From Akkermansia muciniphila (lineage in GTDB: Bacteria > Verrucomicrobiota > Verrucomicrobiia > Methylacidiphilales > Verrucolacustridaceae): DNA of 33,538 bases. The stretch covers positions 1 through 33,538 of the forward strand of contig CAMDXQ010000006.1 in the NCBI GenBank assembly GCA_945878585.1. Direction: 5' to 3'. This document shows, one piece after another, positions 6,264 through 17,813 of this stretch. A model generated the notes under the pieces. The model had not been told where the DNA came from. It searched no databases and saw only the letters and a program-made list of their open reading frames with translations. The position numbers were made by a program, and so were the translations under genes. Each line of letters opens with the position of its first letter. Position 1 is the stretch's first letter.

Positions 6264-8111
6264 ATGTGTGGAATTGTCGCCTATGTGGGCTCTCGAAATG
6301 CCCAGCCCATTCTCCTGGATGCCCTTAGTCGCCTTGAGTACCGAGGCTACGACTCCGCGGGTCTCGCGATCTTGAATGGACATGGAGTTGAAGTTCGCAA
6401 AAAGAGCGGTCGGATCGAAAATCTCGCGAAAGCGTGCCAAGCAAAACCAATTTCAGGTTCCATGGGAATCAGTCATACCCGTTGGGCCACCCACGGAGCC
6501 CCCACCGATTCGAATGCCCATCCTCATCTTGATGCCTCGGGAAAATTAGCCCTAGTGCACAATGGGGTGATTGAAAACTTTCTCGAATTAAAAGAAAAGC
6601 TCTCAAAGGCGGGTCACACTTTCCAGTCCGACACTGACACCGAGGTTCTCGCTCACTGTCTTGGGGACGCGTACGCAAAGAGTCAGGCCAAGGGTGAGGC
6701 GCGACTCTTGGAGGCAGTTCGACAGACGTTTAACCAGATTCACGGGACTATGGGTATTGCCGTAATTCATTCCGACCTACCCGGCCTGGTTGTCGGCGCC
6801 AGACGTGGCAGTCCTCTCGTAATTGGAGTCGGACAAGGGGAAAACTTTCTCGCCAGCGACACTCAAGCTCTCGCTCCATACACCAACCGAGTCGTCATTC
6901 TGAAGGATTTAGAAATCGTCGCACTCCATGCAGACCGCTTTGACGTCTCTTCTCCGCTTGGATCTAACACTCAGATCAAAGTGGAAGAAATTGAGAACGG
7001 GATGATTCATTCCGACAAAGGATCCCACCCTCATTTTATGCTGAAGGAGATCATGGAACAGCCTCGTTCGATCGAGAACGCTTTCCGTGGTCGGCTCGAT
7101 CGGGATGGGGGCACCACAAAACTCGGCGGGCTAAACATGAGCGCCGACCAGCTTCGCCAGATCCAACGAATCTCGGTCTTGGGTTGCGGAACGGCCCTCC
7201 ACTCAGGAATGGTGGGAAAATATCTAATCGAGGATCTGGCGAAGATTCCTGTCGAAACACAACACGCCAGCGAATTTCGCTACGGAGATTCTCCCGTTTC
7301 TCGTCACACCCTTTTTCTGGCAGTCAGTCAATCCGGTGAAACTGCGGATACCTTGGGAGCCCTACGCGAAGCCCAACGTCGCGGGTATCCGTGCCTTGGT
7401 ATTTGCAATAATGTGGCCAGCTCCATCGCCCGAGAAAGCGATGGAGGCGTCTACATGCACGCGGGTCCTGAAATCGGGGTCGCGGCAACGAAGTCCTTTA
7501 CCTCCCAGGTCATGGTTTTTGCTCTGCTTGGCCTTCTTCTAGGAAGACACCACCAACTTTCTGCAAATCATGGCGCGGAGCTTCTGGACGCGATTGTGCA
7601 ACTCCCCGAAAAGATTCGTCAGACCCTCAAGCACTCCGATTCGGTCGCCAGAGTCGCTAAAACCTACGCCCACTCCCGCTCGATGCTTTTTTTAGGGCGT
7701 TTGGCAAACTTCCCCATTGCGTTGGAGGGAGCACTCAAGATGAAGGAGATCACCTATCTCCATGCAGAAGGTTATCCGAGCGCAGAACTAAAGCACGGGG
7801 TCATTGCCATGATCGACAAGGAAACCCCAACCGTCCTGATCGCAACTCAAGACGGGGTTTATGATAAGAATTTGGGAAGTTTGCAGGAAATCAAGGCCCG
7901 TGGCGGCCCCGTGATTGCGGTTGCCGAAGAGGGGGACTCCAAAATTCAAGGATTGGCAGATGCTGTCCTCCAAGTTCCCAAGACCCACGAGCTTCTCCAA
8001 CCCATTCTAAACGTAATTCCCCTCCAACTCTTCTCCTACCATACCGCTGTGGCGCTCGGACGGGATGTCGACAAGCCCCGAAACCTCGCGAAGTCGGTCA
8101 CTGTCGAATAA
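6264..8111 (+). CDS. glmS: Glutamine-fructose-6-phosphate aminotransferase (isomerizing)
   Basis: Converts fructose-6-phosphate and glutamine to glucosamine-6-phosphate, the entry to peptidoglycan, LPS and other amino-sugar polymers. The 615-residue length is standard. The protein opens with MCGIVAYVG, so Cys2 is the N-terminal nucleophile of the class II glutaminase domain (about residues 1-220); the HTRWATHG motif follows. Two SIS domains make the isomerase half, with SQSGETADT in the first. The C-terminal PRNLAKSVTVE matches the conserved family end. No glmS ribozyme-like leader is possible because the gap to glgC is only 38 bp. A product link to the amino-sugar deacetylases at 12521-15823 is plausible but inferred. 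Confidence 0.97.
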   Translation: MCGIVAYVGSRNAQPILLDALSRLEYRGYDSAGLAILNGHGVEVRKKSGRIENLAKACQAKPISGSMGISHTRWATHGAPTDSNAHPHLDASGKLALVHNGVIENFLELKEKLSKAGHTFQSDTDTEVLAHCLGDAYAKSQAKGEARLLEAVRQTFNQIHGTMGIAVIHSDLPGLVVGARRGSPLVIGVGQGENFLASDTQALAPYTNRVVILKDLEIVALHADRFDVSSPLGSNTQIKVEEIENGMIHSDKGSHPHFMLKEIMEQPRSIENAFRGRLDRDGGTTKLGGLNMSADQLRQIQRISVLGCGTALHSGMVGKYLIEDLAKIPVETQHASEFRYGDSPVSRHTLFLAVSQSGETADTLGALREAQRRGYPCLGICNNVASSIARESDGGVYMHAGPEIGVAATKSFTSQVMVFALLGLLLGRHHQLSANHGAELLDAIVQLPEKIRQTLKHSDSVARVAKTYAHSRSMLFLGRLANFPIALEGALKMKEITYLHAEGYPSAELKHGVIAMIDKETPTVLIATQDGVYDKNLGSLQEIKARGGPVIAVAEEGDSKIQGLADAVLQVPKTHELLQPILNVIPLQLFSYHTAVALGRDVDKPRNLAKSVTVE

Positions 8112-8248: not shown

Positions 8249-8294
8249 GTGAATAAATTTAATTCAGGAGTTGATTTCAGTAGCTAGGTTGGTG

Positions 8295-8960
8295 ATGATT
8301 TCACTTCCTCGGATGAAGACCAAGCTGCTTTCCAAAAACAATCACAACCCGAAACTCTCGATTCTTCGGGAGATTAAGCGCAGCCAAGGTCTTTCGGTTG
8401 CGGAGCTCTGCCAGCGGGTCGGCCTCTCCTACATGGGCATCAAGCAGCACTGCATTGGCCTTGAACGGGACGGATATCTGGATACGTGGCGTCGCCCTAA
8501 GGGGATGGGACGCCCAGAGAAAGCCTATCGTCTAACCGACGGAGCCCGCGAATTCTTCCCGAGTCGCTATCCTCAGTTCAGCCTTCAGATTTTGGAGTCG
8601 GTAAAGGAGATTTATGGTTCCCTAGGACCAGAAAAGATTCTCCATAACATCTACAAAGCAGAGACTCAGCGTTACGAAATTAAACTTCAGAAACTAGAAG
8701 GCGAATCCCGCTATCGTGGCCTCGCCCAACTGCGGGAAGAAGACGGCTATATGGCCGAATACTCTTTCGATAACTCAGCCCGAACCCATCGGATTACTGA
8801 ATTTAATTCCGCTATCCTCGACTGCCTCGATAACTTTCCCATGATCCGCGATTACGAGAGGCAAATGTTTGAGAAAGTTCTTCGTGCCAAGGTGAAGCGT
8901 GACGAGGAACGTGTTGCCGGTCTTTATCGCTGCACTTACACCGTTCTCGGCGCTGCCTAA
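8295..8960 (+). CDS. Winged-helix transcriptional regulator, SufR/ArsR-like
   Basis: Predicted DNA-binding regulator of about 221 aa. The N-terminal third is a winged helix: helices around LREIKRSQGLSVAEL and GLSYMGIKQH, then a wing with GMGRPEKAYRLTDGA, the pattern of COG2345/SufR-type proteins. The C-terminal half fits the effector region of that family, ending with RCTYTV, which matches its terminal Cys motif. The other cysteines that hold the Fe-S cluster in SufR seem not to be conserved (the usual NCP position reads NSA). The start is unsure: the frame is open from TTG 8271, but the AGGAG there abuts that codon; ATG 8295 has AGG six bases upstream, and ATG 8313 is also possible. No suf genes are nearby, so the target is unknown. 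Confidence 0.75.
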   Translation: MISLPRMKTKLLSKNNHNPKLSILREIKRSQGLSVAELCQRVGLSYMGIKQHCIGLERDGYLDTWRRPKGMGRPEKAYRLTDGAREFFPSRYPQFSLQILESVKEIYGSLGPEKILHNIYKAETQRYEIKLQKLEGESRYRGLAQLREEDGYMAEYSFDNSARTHRITEFNSAILDCLDNFPMIRDYERQMFEKVLRAKVKRDEERVAGLYRCTYTVLGAA

Positions 8961-9346: not shown

Positions 9347-10084
9347 TTATTTACCCAGAAAACTAAGAAGAACAATTCCAAAGGCCACAAGAGAAGCGAT
9401 CAACGCCGCAACCGCCAAAGCCGTCCCGCCACTATCGTTATCAACGACTGTCCTCGCGACTGCCACTCCTCCTACTTTAGGTGCCGCTCCGGTCATGCCA
9501 GCAGGTGCGGATGCGGGCTTCGGTCCCCCGACACCAGGCGTTGAAACAACTCCTCCGGGTCCAGCCACAGGCGTAATCGGTTTTGCAACCTGAGTCGCCG
9601 CGGGTGAAGGTCCCCCTGCAGGTTTTGCAGGTGCGGCACCGGTCGCCCCAGCTGCGGGTCGGGGCGGGAGAGAAATTCGCATCGTCTCCTTTTTCAAATC
9701 GGCAGGCGGCTTGGCTGCTCCGGGCAAGGGCGGAAGGGTAACGCCAGATGGTCTTGGTGCAGCACCAGGTGCGGCGGGCGCTCCCGGCGCAGGAGGCACG
9801 GGTGCAGCAGGGGCACCCGAGATCGAAGGCTTGGGAGCTGCAGGTGGAGCCAAACGCATCGTCTCTTTTTTGAGACCAGGTGCAATCGGAGCGGCTGGTG
9901 CAGCAGGAGCGCCCGGCGGCTTGGGCAACGAAGGAGCCGGTGGCTTTAAACCAACCGCAGGAGGAGCTAAAGGAGGCTTAGGCAGTCCAGGTAAAGGCGG
10001 AGCGGGAGGCTTCAGCCCGCCACTAGGTAAAGCTGCCCCAGGAGGCAATGGAGGCGATGGCGGCTTCGGAGGACTTTCAGACAT
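9347..10084 (-). CDS. Proline/alanine-rich tail-anchored membrane protein with two KKETMR motifs
   Basis: No function is recognised. The 245-residue protein is low-complexity Pro/Ala/Gly up to about residue 215, then has one hydrophobic helix near residues 219-241 (ALAVAALIASLVAFGIVLLSFL) ending in GK. With no N-terminal signal, a tail-anchored topology with a cytoplasmic proline-rich region is likely. Two copies of LKKETMR (KKETMR at about residues 72-77 and 131-136) break the low-complexity sequence; one is followed by ISLPP and the other by LAPP. Repeated charged motifs in a disordered chain look like docking sites. It precedes trxA by 9 bp. Reverse-strand glycine-rich frames are compositional shadows. 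Confidence 0.8.
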   Translation of the reverse strand: MSESPPKPPSPPLPPGAALPSGGLKPPAPPLPGLPKPPLAPPAVGLKPPAPSLPKPPGAPAAPAAPIAPGLKKETMRLAPPAAPKPSISGAPAAPVPPAPGAPAAPGAAPRPSGVTLPPLPGAAKPPADLKKETMRISLPPRPAAGATGAAPAKPAGGPSPAATQVAKPITPVAGPGGVVSTPGVGGPKPASAPAGMTGAAPKVGGVAVARTVVDNDSGGTALAVAALIASLVAFGIVLLSFLGK

Positions 10085-10140: not shown

Positions 10141-12534
10141 TCACAAAAGCGCATCCCTCCAGAAACTTTGAAATGCATCGTGCCAACTTCGCCCCTGAAT
10201 CGTCCTTTCCCTTCGTTTTTGCCTCTCCTCGGCGCCGTTTGCCTGTAAAGCGAGCCTCTGAATTGCATCAACCCAGTTTGCAAGATCCCCTGCAACGACA
10301 CTTTCTCCATCCATGGCATCCCTGAGCAGTTCGGCCGGTCCCCCCTGATTCGAAACCACGACAGGCAAACCGGACGCCATCGCCTCCACGACGACATTCC
10401 CATATGTATCGGTTGTACTCGGAAAAACAAAGAGATCGGCGGAGGCATACGCTTGGGCCAACTCCTCCCCGTGCAAAACGCCCGTAAAGATTCCCTGCGG
10501 CACTTTCCTCTTCAACTCCTCAAGAAAGGGGCCCTCGCCGACAAACGCAAATGTCACACCAGCACTCTTCGGAATCTTGCCTGCCACCCGCGCAAGAAAA
10601 TCGAGCTCCTTTTCTTTCGAAATTCTGCCCACATAAAGTGCCACTTTCCCCGCAGCGCCTCTCCTACTCCAGAAATCCTCCTTTCGGTGCTTGGTCGAAA
10701 ATAAATCCGTCTCCAATCCTCGCGGGAGAATTCCCAGCTTTTCCCGAGGGAGCCCACGCTCCACCCAACGGTCCAGATAGCTCTGTGAATTTACATAGAC
10801 CCGATCCATCTGGCTGTAGAACCAGTGCATATAGTTCCACGCAATACCCTCCACCAGCGGATCATCTTCGCTCAAAAACCTCGCGTACTGAGGGAAGTCA
10901 GTGTGGTAGATCGCGCTTGTTCTTAATCCAAGCACATTGGCGGCCATCAACCCTGCTAAGCCCATCGGGCCGGGAGTGCTTAAGATGAGCTCCGTATAAC
11001 CCCTCTGTGCGATGTGATCGATCACATCCAGAATCGGCGGGAAGCTTAGTTTCTGCAAATCATACTCCGGAATGGTGAAAACCCCCACCGGCTGAAAGTT
11101 CATCACCCCGGGCTCCGGCGAGAATCCGGGTCGACTCGTAAGAATGGTGATGTCGGCTCCGGATTCCCTTCCTGCTTTGGCCATTGTCCGAATCGTCCGA
11201 GCCACCCCATTCACATCCTCCAAAGTATCGGTGAACCAAGCCTTCCTGTGATTTTGAAGATTTTTTGGCCTTTCCCCAAGAAATCGTTCAGCTACCTCCC
11301 CCCACATCCTTCGATCGCTCCTCAACGCATGGAAGGAGTAGAGATAGGGGGCTGTCGCTAATCCTAAAGGCAATACTCCTGCAAGAGGCTCCAAACCGCC
11401 GAGAAAATCCCCTTTCTCCGCTTTCCCTATGAACCTCGTCACGATTCGAAATCCCACATCGTTCATAACTTTCGACGCCAGCCTGAAACTCCTCCGCTCA
11501 GGAACCTGTTCCGCCTCCAAAACCTTCTGTAACTCCTCCCGGGTAGAGGCCTGATTGAGATAAGCGGAAAGCTCCTTACTCAATCCCCCTTCTGGAGACT
11601 TCCAAAAATCCAAAATCCTCCCACTGGTAACCATTTCCACCGCGTAACGGGCCTTATCCAGAAAACTGATCTCGAGCGGATTCTCACCCGCAAGAAATCG
11701 GTTCACGATCCGCAATAAAAGGTCGGAGCCCCGAGGGGCTCGATGCCCAATTTTGAGACGGAGAAAATCGAAAATCACATGAAATAGACCATTCACTAAT
11801 CGAGCAGGGTCTCCACCCTGTCCATGTACGACCCCCTCCCCTCGCTCCACCCCGCGTAAAAAAGCCTCTACATCTCTTGCAGCAGGCACCTCCGTCCAAA
11901 CCTGTCCGGCATATAAACCGCAATGGTCGTTGGAGCCGCCCATCCACGATTTTTTCCACGGAGTACCCCCGACCGGTTCTATGCCATGGCGATCTGCCAA
12001 CTCACGGATCTTTTTTTCCGTCAAAGCCGAACAGCAGGCGAAAGCAACCTCTTGCCCCAAAGTTGAACGCAATCCATTCACTTTCTCAAATACTTGAAAG
12101 AGAAGGATCAGTTTCTCAAAATGATCAGGCTTCATTTTTCCATCCAGGTGAAGCAAGGGATGGGCCACTGCATGAACAATCCCCTCCTGTCGAAGGAACT
12201 TAGCCAACTCAAAGATATTTGGCCGCAACTTCTCCACCTCCATCTCTTCCGCTTCGCCTAAATTCCATGCCAGGAGGTGAACTTTGCAGTGGTCCTCAGG
12301 AAAGTACGTCGTGATCTCCATCCCTGGGATAAAGCCTTCCAAGCCTCGCAAATCACGAGCCGCACCAAGAGTATTGTGGTCGGTCAGTGTGACAAAATCG
12401 TGACCGGAGGACCGCAACGTCTCATACAGTTTTCGAGGCTCCGACAAGCTATCAGGAATGCCCAGTTTTCGCAGAATCCACTCCGAGGGGCGGTCCGAAT
12501 ACCGGCTATGAAGATGGAGGTCAGCTTTGGACAT
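10141..12534 (-). CDS. PHP-domain / GT4 glycosyltransferase fusion protein
   Basis: A 797-residue two-domain protein. Residues 1 to about 230 form a PHP metal-dependent phosphoesterase domain with DLHLHS (5-10), TDHN (51-54), GMEI (Glu73), His86 and AHPL (His125), so the metal ligands look complete. After a helical linker, residues from about 415 to the end form a GT-B fold, GT4-family glycosyltransferase: an N-terminal Rossmann half, HTDFP as in phosphatidylinositol-mannosyltransferase-like enzymes, and the D-x7-E donor motif in TDTYGNVVVEA (709-717). The ATG at 12534 is chosen because it starts the PHP motif; an upstream in-frame start at 12621 would add 29 unconserved residues inside the preceding gene. 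It overlaps that gene by 14 bp. Substrates are unknown. Confidence 0.85.
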   Translation of the reverse strand: MSKADLHLHSRYSDRPSEWILRKLGIPDSLSEPRKLYETLRSSGHDFVTLTDHNTLGAARDLRGLEGFIPGMEITTYFPEDHCKVHLLAWNLGEAEEMEVEKLRPNIFELAKFLRQEGIVHAVAHPLLHLDGKMKPDHFEKLILLFQVFEKVNGLRSTLGQEVAFACCSALTEKKIRELADRHGIEPVGGTPWKKSWMGGSNDHCGLYAGQVWTEVPAARDVEAFLRGVERGEGVVHGQGGDPARLVNGLFHVIFDFLRLKIGHRAPRGSDLLLRIVNRFLAGENPLEISFLDKARYAVEMVTSGRILDFWKSPEGGLSKELSAYLNQASTREELQKVLEAEQVPERRSFRLASKVMNDVGFRIVTRFIGKAEKGDFLGGLEPLAGVLPLGLATAPYLYSFHALRSDRRMWGEVAERFLGERPKNLQNHRKAWFTDTLEDVNGVARTIRTMAKAGRESGADITILTSRPGFSPEPGVMNFQPVGVFTIPEYDLQKLSFPPILDVIDHIAQRGYTELILSTPGPMGLAGLMAANVLGLRTSAIYHTDFPQYARFLSEDDPLVEGIAWNYMHWFYSQMDRVYVNSQSYLDRWVERGLPREKLGILPRGLETDLFSTKHRKEDFWSRRGAAGKVALYVGRISKEKELDFLARVAGKIPKSAGVTFAFVGEGPFLEELKRKVPQGIFTGVLHGEELAQAYASADLFVFPSTTDTYGNVVVEAMASGLPVVVSNQGGPAELLRDAMDGESVVAGDLANWVDAIQRLALQANGAEERQKRRERTIQGRSWHDAFQSFWRDALL

Positions 12535-13909
12535 GGTCGGCGTAGGAGTGGGTAGAGTACCCACGCCCAGCCAACTCTTCGAGAAAAACGCCCAACTGCT
12601 TGCGCACAAAAGGAACCTCAAGATCCCGAGGATGAAGGCTCAGTCGGACCACCGGCTCGAAACCCCATCTCTCTTTCCAAATCGGGTGCCAGAGTCTGGC
12701 TAAAACACGTCTCCATGGTGATCGGAGACTGTAAGTCCCGGCCCATGCCCTCTCCCTCTTGCCCTGGGGTAAATGAACGAGATCCCTTAACGTGCAAGTA
12801 TAACAAAACCCGCTCTCCCCCAATCTTTTTTCAAGTGTCGGTGAGTAAAGCCATCCAGGAGCAACAAAGCCGTTAGCTTTCCAACCTTGCCGCTTCCAGA
12901 TCGCTTGAGCGTCTGAGATTCGTCGATCGGCCTCATCTTGGGGCAAAGAATAAAACTCCGCTTCATTTTGGGTGTAAAACTGCGTCCACCACCAAGACTC
13001 AGCCGTCAAACCCTTGCGATCATGATAAAAACCATGAACTGCCAAATCGTGTCCTTGATCGTGGCATTGACCCAAAAACTTGAGACTTCTGGCGCAGTCC
13101 TCAACACGCACCCCATGATGGTACTCAGGGATAACGAGGATCGAAGCCCGTCCAGGACAACGCGAAAGACAGAACTCCATCTGCTTTTCGATCTGTTCTC
13201 GTGAACCGGGATGAAAATCGTGCAGGGACAATAAAAGTCTCGGGGCACGGGGAGGCGGAGTCCGGTCCCGCTCCTGAACAAGAGTACAAAGATAAACCGG
13301 TTCGCTTCGTTTTTTTTGAAACTTGCTCACCTTAGTCCGAGCCGCCATACGGAATCCATATCGGGCAAACATTCTCTCCGTTCTTCGATCATCTTTCACA
13401 ACCACCTGACCAAACACACACTTCTCCCCGAGTTCCCCCATCCGATCCAGAAAAGTATCAAAAAGCGCTTTCCCAACCTTTAATCCACGAACCTCAGGAA
13501 GAAGGTTGATGTGAAAATGAACTCCGTGCGAAGGAGCAGGTGGAGTTTCCCTCTTTCCACGAAAAAGAAGCCAGTGGAGATATTCCCGACTCTCCGCCCC
13601 ATATTGAAAAAAGTAGCGAACGACAGCTCGGACAAACCATCCGGGAAATCGCCACAACAGGTAGCCCTTATGCTTCCAAGAACTGCGGGATCCCATGATA
13701 TACCCCAGAAGCCGACCCTCATAAGTCTCCAAGACAAGACAACACTCAGGCTCTGCATCCGTGTAGGGTGCAGTTAAGAAATCCGCGAAGAGCTCCCGAT
13801 CTTCAAAAAGAGGGTCGATCGGATCCCCTAAAAAACCGGTGTCAGCACAGATCTGCCTGACCCCTGATCGATCCTCAGGTCGATAATAACGGATGCGAAA
13901 CCCTTCCAT
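12521..13909 (-). CDS. GNAT acetyltransferase - polysaccharide-deacetylase-like (DUF2334) fusion
   Basis: A 462-residue fusion. Residues 1 to about 210 resemble a GNAT N-acyltransferase, with the acyl-CoA loop RGLKVGKAL at 141-149 and the final strand FARYGFRM near 181-188. Residues 223-462 resemble the DUF2334/NodB-like deacetylase fold, with SLHDFHPG (Asp231), VIPEYHHG and HGFYH (His292, His296) as metal-site candidates and APGW later. No signal peptide is present, so it is cytoplasmic. ATG 13909 is chosen because it lies 4 bp after the upstream glycosyltransferase stop and starts the conserved domain; an alternative at 13975 would overlap that gene. Removal and addition of N-acyl groups on an amino sugar is an inference. 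Confidence 0.8.
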   Translation of the reverse strand: MEGFRIRYYRPEDRSGVRQICADTGFLGDPIDPLFEDRELFADFLTAPYTDAEPECCLVLETYEGRLLGYIMGSRSSWKHKGYLLWRFPGWFVRAVVRYFFQYGAESREYLHWLLFRGKRETPPAPSHGVHFHINLLPEVRGLKVGKALFDTFLDRMGELGEKCVFGQVVVKDDRRTERMFARYGFRMAARTKVSKFQKKRSEPVYLCTLVQERDRTPPPRAPRLLLSLHDFHPGSREQIEKQMEFCLSRCPGRASILVIPEYHHGVRVEDCARSLKFLGQCHDQGHDLAVHGFYHDRKGLTAESWWWTQFYTQNEAEFYSLPQDEADRRISDAQAIWKRQGWKANGFVAPGWLYSPTLEKRLGESGFCYTCTLRDLVHLPQGKRERAWAGTYSLRSPWRRVLARLWHPIWKERWGFEPVVRLSLHPRDLEVPFVRKQLGVFLEELAGRGYSTHSYADHVQS

Positions 13910-13913
13910 CGCT

Positions 13914-15062
13914 TTACGATTCGTACTCTGCCAACTGACGGGCAAAGGTCTTGTCCCAACTAAAGTTATTTTCAATAAAAGAGATCAGAGGCTTGCGATC
14001 ATTTTCATCCAATCGATGCATCCTTTTTTGCACCGCAAGCGCAAAGGCTTCAGAACTCCTTTCGCTCGCCCAGTGTGTAACGTCGTGGGATTGTTCATCC
14101 ATCGCCCCACCTCGAAAGGCAATCACGGGGAGACCACAGGCCTGCGCCTCTAGTAGGACCAGACCAAACGTTTCCCATCTTCCCGGATGAAGTAAAAGAT
14201 CCGCCGCCTGATACCACTCCGCTAGTGCTGTGGGGTCCTTGAGAAAGGGAGTGGTCCGTATCCTGGGATGAGTTCGGACATAGCCATCCACCTCATCCTT
14301 CATCTGGCCGCCTCCTACCATCACCCCAATCCAATCACTTGGCTCCTTTCTCTCAAGACTACTCCAGGCCCTCAGCAACAATGCTGTGTCCTTATCGGGA
14401 GAGAACCTTCCGACATAAAGAAGAACGCGGGTTTCCAAAGGCAATCCTAGTTGTTTGCGCAGCTCCCGCTTTCGCTCCAGAGAAACTGGTTGAAATATCT
14501 TTGTGTCCACACCCAAAGGCAGATGTATCAACCTTGGAACACCCCACCCTCCCAAAATGCGGATCAAGTGTCGGCTTCCCACAAAAACCCCATTTCCTGA
14601 TAGGGCTAAACGCCTCAGATAATCCCCTGCCAACTGCTCCGTGACCGACCGTGCCCAAGGGCCGAGAAACTTTAAGATCGTTCGCAAGAGGGCATCAGGA
14701 AAGTGAGAGTGATAGAACATGTAGAATTTGGAACCACGTCGGTTCGCCCAGTTTCTTGCCACCATGGCCGCGTGATAAGGATCTCCCGACTCGACCACAT
14801 CGGGGCGCTCCGCATAAAGAATCCTTAGCAAGGCAGGAAGATCCATCATCCATCGATAACGAGAGGTCCGATTCACCATAGGCCCTCGGACCGTCCAGAT
14901 TTGAGTTCGCCCCCCCTCCACCCGCTCCGTTTGGCTCCCTGGAACGATCATCAGATGCTCATGCGAGGTGTTCTCCCTGAGAAACTTCCGTTTCTCCAAC
15001 AGGTAAGAACGCACCCCACCCCCTTGAGGCGAGTACATCTGGCTCAAATCACAGATCTTCAT
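13914..15062 (-). CDS. GT4-family glycosyltransferase
   Basis: Predicted GT-B retaining glycosyltransferase of 382 aa that transfers a sugar from a nucleotide-sugar to a lipid or glycan acceptor. The N-terminal acceptor loop reads PQGGGVRSY (about 12-20). The donor half has LLYVGRFSPDKD, the usual start of the second Rossmann domain, and the E-x7-E motif in ETFGLVLLEA (Glu297, Glu305). There is no signal peptide or transmembrane segment, so it is cytoplasmic or membrane-peripheral. It is first of three packed minus-strand genes, with 4 bp to the next. It diverges from a secreted deacetylase across 47 bp. The sugar and acceptor cannot be read from the sequence. Confidence 0.88.
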   Translation of the reverse strand: MKICDLSQMYSPQGGGVRSYLLEKRKFLRENTSHEHLMIVPGSQTERVEGGRTQIWTVRGPMVNRTSRYRWMMDLPALLRILYAERPDVVESGDPYHAAMVARNWANRRGSKFYMFYHSHFPDALLRTILKFLGPWARSVTEQLAGDYLRRLALSGNGVFVGSRHLIRILGGWGVPRLIHLPLGVDTKIFQPVSLERKRELRKQLGLPLETRVLLYVGRFSPDKDTALLLRAWSSLERKEPSDWIGVMVGGGQMKDEVDGYVRTHPRIRTTPFLKDPTALAEWYQAADLLLHPGRWETFGLVLLEAQACGLPVIAFRGGAMDEQSHDVTHWASERSSEAFALAVQKRMHRLDENDRKPLISFIENNFSWDKTFARQLAEYES

Positions 15063-15072
15063 GGAAAGCGTC

Positions 15073-15101
15073 TTGGATCATGCCTTTCTGCGTGCTAAAG
15101 T
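15073..15101 (+). promoter_or_regulatory. Possible leaderless promoter of the secreted deacetylase
   Basis: TTGGAT (15073-15078) and TAAAGT (15096-15101) are separated by 17 bp, and the -10 ends 8 nt before the ATG at 15110. The -35 match is weak (3/6), the -10 is 4/6. No Shine-Dalgarno precedes the ATG. Confidence 0.3.
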
Positions 15102-15109
15102 GAAAGCAT

Positions 15110-15823
15110 ATGAGGCGAACTGATTTTTTACGCCTTTTGGCAATGGCGGGAGCAGGCTATGCCAGCCCTGCCTTTTCCCAGGGCGGAATCCCGGTCCAAC
15201 CCGGCGAGTGCGAGGTCAACCCCGCCTTCATCAACAGTGGTCCCGGATTTGGGAATCGCCTTGCCCTTACTTTCGACGACGGACCCACACCAGGCGTCAC
15301 CGAACGCGTCCTAGCAGAACTTTCGAAGAGGAACCTTCGCGCCACATTCTTTTTAATCGGGGCCAAGGTGGACGCTTCCCCCCAACTCGCCCGCCGATTG
15401 GTAGATGAAGGCCACGACGTAGCCAACCACTCCTACACTCATCCCCGTCTTGCTGGCATGTCCGATTCCGCCGTCCAGCAGCAACTCGCACGCACACAGG
15501 AATCGATCACTCGTGCCACAGGAGTCACCCCCGTCTGGTTCCGCCCACCTTACGGAGCGTTCCGCAGAGAACAGGGCTCTATCGCATCAAAACTGGGCCT
15601 TGGTGTTGCCTACTGGTCAGTCGACCCCAAGGATTGGGCTCAACCGGGCAGTTCGGCAATTGCCCAACGCGTTCTTTCTGCAAGTCAGCCAGGGTCCATC
15701 ATCCTGCTTCATGATCTCCACTCCCAAACAGCGGACGCAGTCCCCGCAATTTTTGATGGACTGATCGACCGGGCCTTCACCGTCGCACCTTTTCACAGCT
15801 TCGTCGGCGCACCTTACGCCTGA
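15110..15823 (+). CDS. Exported polysaccharide deacetylase (NodB homology, CE4)
   Basis: Metal-dependent N- or O-deacetylase of 237 aa acting on an envelope or extracellular polysaccharide. The N-terminus has a twin-arginine-like start (RRTDFLRL), a hydrophobic stretch and a likely cleavage after ASPAFS near residue 23. All five CE4 motifs are visible: TFDDG (54-58, catalytic and metal Asp), HSYTH (metal His pair), RPPYG, a DPKDW motif and LLHD (catalytic His). Peptidoglycan or chitooligosaccharide deacetylases are the nearest types. It diverges from the glycosyltransferase cluster, suggesting shared glycan business, and converges on the beta-helix gene at 15847. Confidence 0.92.
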   Translation: MRRTDFLRLLAMAGAGYASPAFSQGGIPVQPGECEVNPAFINSGPGFGNRLALTFDDGPTPGVTERVLAELSKRNLRATFFLIGAKVDASPQLARRLVDEGHDVANHSYTHPRLAGMSDSAVQQQLARTQESITRATGVTPVWFRPPYGAFRREQGSIASKLGLGVAYWSVDPKDWAQPGSSAIAQRVLSASQPGSIILLHDLHSQTADAVPAIFDGLIDRAFTVAPFHSFVGAPYA

Positions 15824-15846: not shown

Positions 15847-16479
15847 CTAACCTTTCGTACTCCAGATCGTTCCCGGCAAAATCTTCGCTTTGCGGGCCAC
15901 CAAACTCCCTGGATTAAGTACCGCATTACATCCCACAGAAGCGCCATCCCCTACGATCGCACCAAACTTCCTTAACCCCGTTTCAACCAGATGCCCATCG
16001 CGACGAACGCGAATAACCTGACCATCCAAGCGATAGTTCGAAAGAATCACTCCTGCACCCAGATTCACGTCCCGACCCAACACCGAATCCCCCACATAAT
16101 TGAAATGAGGTGCATGAGCACCGGAAAGGAGGATGCAATTTTTGAATTCGGAGCTATTCCCTAAAACACAGTTATCTCCGGCAATCACGTTCTCCCGCAG
16201 ATAAGCACCGTGACGAATCTCACAGTTTTTTCCGATCCAAGCCGGTCCCCGAATATAAGCCCCAGGCTCAACAATTGTACCCTCTCCCAGAAAAACATTT
16301 TCCCCGATCATCGGTTCCCCCACCAGCATCCCTTTCGAGCCTTTCGGGATATGTTTTTTTAAATAGGAAGCAATCCGAGGAAGAACTTCCCAAACTTGCT
16401 TCACCGAATCGAAAAGCTCCTCGTGCCCCTGCCCTTGGAGGTCGAAAAAATCACTCAGACCAGATCCCAAACCTTTCAT
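15847..16479 (-). CDS. Standalone left-handed beta-helix acyltransferase (GlmU C-terminal-like)
   Basis: A 210-residue protein made mostly of hexapeptide repeats, closest in pattern to the acetyltransferase half of GlmU. HFNYVGDS carries a histidine at the place of the GlmU catalytic His, NLGAGVILSNY matches the helix core, and GDGASVGCNAVLNPG closes the helix. The N-terminal uridylyltransferase domain of GlmU is absent, replaced by about 60 mainly helical residues. ATG 16479 is chosen because GAGGGG lies just upstream; a TTG at 16515 would overlap hemL. The reaction is likely CoA-dependent acetylation of a sugar amine or sugar phosphate, but nucleotidyltransferase-like annotations are also given to relatives. 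It is last in the eight-gene minus-strand run. Confidence 0.8.
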   Translation of the reverse strand: MKGLGSGLSDFFDLQGQGHEELFDSVKQVWEVLPRIASYLKKHIPKGSKGMLVGEPMIGENVFLGEGTIVEPGAYIRGPAWIGKNCEIRHGAYLRENVIAGDNCVLGNSSEFKNCILLSGAHAPHFNYVGDSVLGRDVNLGAGVILSNYRLDGQVIRVRRDGHLVETGLRKFGAIVGDGASVGCNAVLNPGSLVARKAKILPGTIWSTKG

Positions 16480-16511
16480 TCCCCTCACCCTGCCTGACCC
16501 AACGGCAGGTC

Positions 16512-17813
16512 TCAAGCCTTCCGATGCAGTGCGCTTTGGAGCGCCGTCTTTGTGATCTCTAGCTCCTCCTCCCCGTGTGCTGCGGAAAGAAAACAGGACT
16601 CGAACTGAGAAGGCGGGAAATACACCCCCTTCTCAAGCATCTTGTGAAAAAAGGCGGCATAAGCCGCACAATCACACTTCTGTGCTTCTGCTAAATCCCG
16701 CACCCTCCCACCCTTCTCATGGAAAAAGAGGCAAAACATCGAACCGACCCGAGCCCACGGATAATCCAGGCCCGCACTCTCCATTGTTTTTCTTGCGATT
16801 TTCTCAATCTCTCGTCCCGTTTTCTCCAGTCGCTCATAAACCCCTCCCCTTTCCAAAACCTTCAACTGAGCAATCCCTGCTGCCATCGCCAACGGATGGC
16901 CTGATAGAGTCCCCGCCTGATAAACAGGACCATCTGGAGCGAGTTGATCCATAATTTCCGCCCTCCCCCCAAAAGCTCCGACAGGCATCCCCCCCCCAAT
17001 CACCTTCCCAAAAGCGGTGAGATCAGGGCGCACCCCCAACATTCCTTGGGCTCCACCCAGCCCAAGTCGAAATCCAGTCATCACCTCATCAAAGATCAGC
17101 AAAGCACCAACTTTGCTTGCCTGTTCCCGAAGAAACTCCAGATACCCCTCTTCGGGTAAAATCAAACCAACATTCGCGGGAATCGGTTCAAGGAGAATGG
17201 CCGCCAGATCCTCCCCATACTTTTCCAAGCAGATCCCCACCGCCTCTCGATCATGAAAAGGCAGGATCAAGGTATCTTGAACCGCCCCTAGGGTGACACC
17301 TGCACTGTCCGGTCGCCCTAAGGTCAAGGGACCCGAGCCAGCTGCCACCAGCAGCGCATCGCTATGACCATGATAACATCCGGAAAATTTAATGATCTTG
17401 TTTTTTCGAGTAAACCCACGAGCCAATCTGACGCACGACATCGTTGCCTCCGTGCCGCTGCTGCAAAAGCGCACCTTCTCGACGCTCGGAACTAAATCAC
17501 ATATTTTCGAGGCGAGCTCTACTTCACCAGGATGAGGTGTCCCAAAGCTCATCCCCTTTCCTGCTACCTCCCGAACCGCATCCACAATCTCAGGGTGCGC
17601 ATGTCCCAAAATCGCAGGACCCCAGCTTCCCACGTAGTCCACATACTCAATCCCATCCACATCTCGTAAACGGGCCCCTTGGGCTGAAGAAACAAAGAAA
17701 GGTTCTCCTCCAACAGCCCGAAAAGCACGCACGGGGGAATGAACCCCGCCAGGAGTCACCTCCATGGCTTTGCGAAATAACTCCCGCGAACGTTCCCCTC
17801 GTCCTTGCGTCAT
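16512..17813 (-). CDS. hemL: Glutamate-1-semialdehyde 2,1-aminomutase
   Basis: PLP enzyme of the C5 tetrapyrrole pathway, turning glutamate-1-semialdehyde into 5-aminolevulinate for haem. Length 433 aa is typical. Seen are the N-terminal TPGGVHSPVRAF motif, the cofactor-phosphate region SSGTEAT (119-125), the FDEV motif (241-244) that binds the pyridine nitrogen, and the Schiff-base lysine in FGKVIGGGMPVGAFG (Lys270). No Shine-Dalgarno is obvious before the ATG. It lies 54 bp downstream of recG in the long minus-strand run, an unlinked function suggesting a growth-related operon. Confidence 0.96.
   Translation of the reverse strand: MTQGRGERSRELFRKAMEVTPGGVHSPVRAFRAVGGEPFFVSSAQGARLRDVDGIEYVDYVGSWGPAILGHAHPEIVDAVREVAGKGMSFGTPHPGEVELASKICDLVPSVEKVRFCSSGTEATMSCVRLARGFTRKNKIIKFSGCYHGHSDALLVAAGSGPLTLGRPDSAGVTLGAVQDTLILPFHDREAVGICLEKYGEDLAAILLEPIPANVGLILPEEGYLEFLREQASKVGALLIFDEVMTGFRLGLGGAQGMLGVRPDLTAFGKVIGGGMPVGAFGGRAEIMDQLAPDGPVYQAGTLSGHPLAMAAGIAQLKVLERGGVYERLEKTGREIEKIARKTMESAGLDYPWARVGSMFCLFFHEKGGRVRDLAEAQKCDCAAYAAFFHKMLEKGVYFPPSQFESCFLSAAHGEEELEITKTALQSALHRKA

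Follow-up and report, generated by a model that had tools for sequence, protein, structure and literature searches.

The window analysed here, a stretch of 33,538 nucleotides from a draft genome of 1.48 Mb (contig C6), contains three minus-strand genes encoding a GT4 glycosyltransferase (13914-15062, assigned by reading frame and domain search), a fusion of a GNAT domain with a DUF2334 domain (12521-13909) and a fusion of a PHP-like domain with a second GT4 domain (10141-12534), alongside a divergent gene for an exported NodB-family deacetylase (15110-15823, plus strand). The GT4 and GNAT-DUF2334 genes are separated by a 4-bp gap (13910-13913), and the start of the PHP-GT4 gene overlaps the stop of the GNAT-DUF2334 gene by 14 bp. 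Longer, TTG-started frames were given for both fusion genes by the mechanical ORF caller; the ATG starts were adopted because they match this gap and this overlap, and the resulting single open frames encode proteins of 462 and 797 amino acids, respectively. The reading frames confirmed the layout described in an earlier sequence-only reading of this DNA (three minus-strand genes, 4-bp gap, 14-bp overlap and divergent NodB gene). Pfam-type domains found were GT4 in both glycosyltransferase regions, Acetyltransf_1 and DUF2334 in the first fusion, and Polysacc_deac_1 in the NodB-family protein. Scans for promoters and terminators at the locus gave results at chance level.

In the window's genus the set is flanked by a stand-alone GlmU-type hexapeptide acetyltransferase domain (15847-16515, minus strand) and by glmS (6264-8111, plus strand). 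Enzymes of these two kinds serve the supply of UDP-GlcNAc, which is the likely donor. A regulator-like protein with a helix-turn-helix recognised by eye (8271-8960, plus strand; no Pfam match) is kept in the genus and in locus L025, and a Pro/Ala-rich protein that repeats a KKETMRI-like motif and ends in a hydrophobic C-terminal stretch (9347-10084, minus strand; no Pfam match) has similar proteins close to the set at L059, L062 and L063.

The GT4 protein matched the GpgS family (NF053787) over its full length (residues 1-381 on 1-357 of 361) with 213 bits, under the curated cut-off of 480 bits, and its relatives reached 241-293 bits. It was the best GpgS match in each of six carrier genomes (213-293 bits); the next-best match in the window's genome scored 95 bits, and the second-best family for the protein was MshA (84 bits). 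The DUF2334 domain (12530-13240) likewise matched the GpgD family (NF053788) over its full length (2-236 of 241) with 154 bits, under the curated cut-off of 280 bits, relatives reaching 194 bits. It was the sole GpgD match in each of the six carrier genomes, and two genomes of the class that lack the set gave no GpgD match. Because both proteins fall under the NCBI cut-offs, they are described here as relatives of GpgS and GpgD and not as proven members, and membership in these families is not claimed. The motifs E-x7-E, GRxxxxK and YHSHF of the GT4 protein were retained among relatives in the alignment, and the motifs HD, HGxxH, APxW and HPxD of DUF2334 were retained in all aligned relatives. 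On the basis of these matches, the GT4 protein is proposed to transfer GlcNAc to a membrane lipid, and DUF2334, as a relative of GpgD, is likely the N-deacetylase of the set.

The GNAT domain (13310-13909) is of the SsAT/OgpAT type, related to the pseudo-HAT domain of human O-GlcNAcase, as found both with phmmer (E=3.5e-18 against 4bmh) and with Foldseek using the predicted structure (best matches 4bmh, 3zj0 and 6r45; 3.0e-12). The AlphaFold2 model of the whole fusion protein had a mean pLDDT of 88.6. The fusion was matched in eight other genomes of the genus at 58-82% identity, as open frames of about 430-510 amino acids except where the match was cut by a contig end, and was seen only in this genus; an assembly error was rejected as its origin, since the fusion is present in several genomes of the genus. 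At the acetyl-CoA loop, for which Q/R-x-x-G-x-G/A is expected, a near-canonical RGLKVG is found in the window's genus, against an R-x-x-x-x-T-like loop without Gly-x-Gly in the stand-alone relatives, so that the loop is atypical in most relatives. SsAT binds acetyl-CoA, and the human OGA domain, whose loop is atypical, was judged unlikely to use acetyl-CoA (PMC3919268). Given the difference in the loop between the genus and the stand-alone relatives, the GNAT domain may work as an enzyme in the fusion but not elsewhere, or may be a binding domain.

The PHP-GT4 protein gave an AlphaFold2 model with a mean pLDDT of 85.3 and a pTM of 0.83. Its PHP region (11749-12534) showed a match at the superfamily level only, to CehA/McbA at about 35-36.5 bits and below the cut-off, with PHP_C or PHP found in some relatives. 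A profile search of this region against solved structures gave no match and the best 50 Foldseek matches of the protein were GT4 folds only; thus no PHP template was identified. Of the presumed metal-ligand positions, assigned from general PHP motifs, all are present in the window, where Asn replaces one Asp (position 202); the same positions are complete in 16 of 34 relatives, and several relatives have lost three or more of them. While these ligands erode, the motifs of the second GT4 domain (10144-11262; PF13692/PF00534/PF13439), namely GRxSxEK, YHTDxPxY and D-x7-E, are kept in the aligned relatives, and in genus g9 the second GT4 has no PHP domain and comes immediately or shortly after DUF2334 (L059, L060, L062 and L063). 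The PHP domain looks accessory, and hexosyl transfer to the same lipid or to a parent lipid is proposed for the second GT4 domain. Foldseek matches of this domain include BshA and MshA. Relatives found through the PHP domain were named as Methylacidiphilum, Chthoniobacterales and other Verrucomicrobiota records, which very probably places the window's genome in this phylum, close to the Methylacidiphilales. One contig that bears the label Candidatus Paceibacterota (L071) carries a PHP domain 83% identical to that of the window, and this record is therefore probably misnamed or mis-binned.

Gene order in related loci was read from tblastn matches. In several families of the window's order the arrangement GT4-GNAT-DUF2334-PHP-GT4 is kept as separate genes, and in other families of the class the parts form two pairs at different places, GT4 with GNAT and DUF2334 with PHP-GT4. 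A 703-codon open frame in locus L170 (5857-7965, minus strand) spans GT4 and GNAT and represents a second, different fusion. Because the GNAT-DUF2334 fusion recurs in eight other genomes of the genus and further families keep the gene order, the arrangement is considered more than chance. Values of dN were 0.05-0.29 per site, with dS at or near saturation. Among the neighbour families common to the loci, those recognisable by eye were housekeeping ones, for example FtsH, HPF, thymidylate kinase and citramalate synthase.

Co-occurrence was counted in 236 genomes of the class, using ortholog-level matches picked by hand with score thresholds set by choice. PHP-GT4 and GT4 were both present in 80 genomes, with PHP-GT4 only in 9, GT4 only in 5 and neither in 142; the corresponding counts were 79, 10, 5 and 142 for PHP-GT4 with GNAT, and 81, 4, 3 and 148 for GT4 with GNAT. 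Fisher p-values were below 1e-40, uncorrected for shared ancestry, and the figures overstate independence because of that ancestry, the chosen thresholds and the incompleteness of draft genomes. PHP-GT4 is kept in more than 80 genomes of the class. Outside the class, 17 genomes with PHP-GT4 were found, of which GT4 was present in 3, and GNAT and DUF2334 in 2. An obligate four-part system across the phylum was rejected on these counts, and the occurrence of PHP-GT4 mostly without the other three outside the class indicates that it has a role of its own. The sequence-only reading would have been contradicted by genes scattered in related genomes or by domains lacking catalytic residues; the order was found to be kept in relatives, and at the level of sequence the active-site motifs of both GT4 domains and of DUF2334 are intact. 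Its description of the PHP-GT4 fusion as unusual did not hold, as this fusion was found in dozens of Verrucomicrobiota genomes. Its suggestions of N-acyl exchange and of a phosphorylated intermediate being processed are conjectural, given the atypical acetyl-CoA loop in most GNAT relatives and the loss of PHP ligands in several lineages.

No flippase gene lies next to the set in the window, and none was found beside it when the loci retrieved from the window's order were searched by BLAST with three flippases only. The earlier statement that no flippase is present therefore stands for the immediate neighbourhood but not for the genome, which encodes two PF03706 proteins, both away from the set, nor for locus L184 outside the class, where GNAT, DUF2334, a PF03706 flippase of the MprF/GpgF type (119.7 bits), GT4 and PHP-GT4 lie within 6.3 kb with the flippase beside GT4. 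Three matches to CDP-alcohol phosphatidyltransferases were found elsewhere in the window's genome. In a distant genome (L182, 879-6906, minus strand), PHP-GT4 lies in what reads as a lipid-synthesis operon: behind it, on its own strand, come an acyltransferase-GNAT protein (PF19576, PF13444) that resembles ornithine-lipid enzymes, then a 180-aa protein and then an MGDG-synthase-like glycosyltransferase.

With slightly better than even confidence, we interpret the set as a pathway for an aminosugar membrane lipid made in the cytoplasm, which would operate in the manner of gpgSDF in P. aeruginosa and hexSDF in C. difficile but with two additional domains. We infer all reactions, donors and acceptors and the order of the steps, set beside the observed homology, conservation, linkage and sequence motifs. 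In the first step, GlcNAc, probably from UDP-GlcNAc, would be moved by the GT4 protein onto a membrane lipid, either phosphatidylglycerol or a glycolipid; that phosphatidylglycerol is the acceptor is a tentative choice, which we regard as somewhat unlikely. The acetyl group would then be removed by DUF2334 to give a cationic glucosamine. A further hexose would come from the GT4 domain of PHP-GT4, placed on the finished lipid or, more probably because of the wider distribution of PHP-GT4, on the parent glycolipid, which the GT4 protein would then decorate, as HexS does. The GNAT domain would acylate or bind the amino sugar and so set the amount of free amine, and its fusion with DUF2334 would bring both the removal of the acyl group and its replacement into a single chain. 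Finally, a PF03706-type flippase encoded elsewhere would carry the lipid outward. In the simplest account, PHP-GT4 would make a parent glycolipid; GT4 would add GlcNAc either to this glycolipid or to phosphatidylglycerol, and DUF2334 would deacetylate it there. A bolder version, which we think has only a small chance of being correct, is that the GNAT-DUF2334 protein is a one-chain acyl exchanger or charge switch, which would strip the acetyl group from the GlcNAc-lipid and could restore the same or another acyl group, and which together with PHP-GT4 would yield a new class of N-acyl-glucosaminyl glycolipids typical of Verrucomicrobiota. Searches of the literature on glucosamine-containing lipids of Methylacidiphilum or Verrucomicrobia, and on this combination of domains, found nothing useful, and no lipid data for a carrier organism came to light.

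The main rival is that two independent lipid pathways have become neighbours, with a GpgS/GpgD-like trio making glucosaminyl-phosphatidylglycerol and PHP-GT4 acting as a glycolipid synthase with its own product. PHP-GT4 does occur without the trio in other classes, and many genomes of the class that belong to other orders than the window's carry the parts at separate chromosomal sites; however, co-occurrence of the parts within the class is almost perfect, and the split does not follow the line between trio and PHP-GT4, since in those genomes DUF2334 pairs with PHP-GT4 and GT4 with GNAT. We therefore judge two separate pathways to be unlikely. The sequence-only reading proposed that the product is a short surface glycan or a glycolipid and that the exported NodB completes it outside the cell. 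Its lipid-linked product agrees with what we regard as the best reading, a conserved gene set with a lipid-linked aminosugar, but the external finishing step fared less well. The NodB gene (PF01522, 128 bits) starts 47 bp from GT4 in the divergent direction, its protein has a twin-arginine-like export signal read by eye (MRRTDFLRLLAMAG), and the gene adjoins GT4 not only in the genus but also in L025 and L058, lying 2 kb off in L060. It was not seen in the remaining fetched related loci, which are the majority, its best family matches (sporulation PdaB, NodB and peptidoglycan deacetylases) were all below the cut-off, and deacetylation is already offered by DUF2334. NodB was thus rejected as a core member for its patchy linkage, and its membership in the set is doubtful; because DUF2334 is likely the deacetylase and the linkage of NodB is limited to the genus and a few loci of the order, the finishing role is not supported, and finishing outside the cell by NodB is considered improbable.

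A pathway for a low-molecular-weight thiol of the mycothiol or bacillithiol kind would run through parallel reactions, with GT4 as MshA or BshA, a deacetylase, PHP as phosphatase and GNAT as MshD, and MshA was the second-best family for GT4. The matches of the second GT4 domain to BshA and MshA are expected for any GT4 fold. Against this, GpgS scored far above MshA for the GT4 protein (213 versus 84 bits), and BshC (PF10079) was found in none of six carrier genomes, with 3 of 14 control genomes positive; the thiol pathway was rejected on these two results. MshB and BshB deacetylases are of the PIG-L type, and the deacetylase here is DUF2334, so that this reading retains very little probability. 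The last alternative, that the GNAT domain is a pseudo-enzyme binding the aminosugar product or a partner protein without any transfer, is compatible with the aminosugar-lipid pathway and is given an appreciable chance, though one short of even. The missing glycines in the loop of stand-alone relatives and the atypical related human OGA domain speak for it, but the near-canonical loop in the window's genus and the binding of acetyl-CoA by SsAT, the nearest solved relative (PMC3919268), speak against it.

If the aminosugar-lipid pathway is correct, glucosaminyl-lipid chemistry would extend to Verrucomicrobiota, a major and poorly cultured phylum, a GNAT domain of the O-GlcNAcase type would be tied to aminosugar lipids, and testable functions would be provided for genes recognised so far only as glycosyltransferase, GNAT, DUF2334 and PHP.

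Among known systems, the window's GNAT is of the same type as SsAT/OgpAT (4bmh, 3zj0) by sequence and fold, but here it sits with glycolipid-type genes and forms one protein with a deacetylase. With CehA/McbA and other PHP phosphoesterases the PHP domain shares a weak but recurrent superfamily match and, in the window, the expected metal-ligand positions; unlike them, it is fused to GT4, scores below the cut-off, has eroded ligands in several lineages and is missing in g9. In C. difficile, hexSDF puts an aminohexose on a hexosyl lipid (PMC10128005), and by the description in that paper a likeness is possible, in that a hexosyl lipid is made, an N-acetylhexose is added, the amine is freed by a deacetylase and an MprF-like flippase is linked; however, HexS is annotated as an MGDG-synthase type and not as GT4, and the operon is without a GNAT or PHP domain. 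The P. aeruginosa enzyme GpgS attaches GlcNAc to phosphatidylglycerol, and GpgD deacetylates the product to the zwitterionic glucosaminyl-phosphatidylglycerol, with gpgF as the predicted flippase gene; the authors call this pathway analogous to hexSDF (PMC12713373). Bacteria were found to contain this lipid as early as the 1960s, whereas the report on its genes, for a single species, came only in 2025 (PMC12713373). The set resembles gpgSDF in encoding a GT4 protein and a DUF2334-type deacetylase together, with full-length homology and with a flippase in the related locus L184, and differs in scores under the equivalog cut-offs, in the additional GNAT and PHP-GT4 and in having no adjacent flippase gene. 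By sequence comparison, it looks like an enlarged variant of the gpgSDF-type aminosugar-lipid gene set that recurs across much of Verrucomicrobiota.
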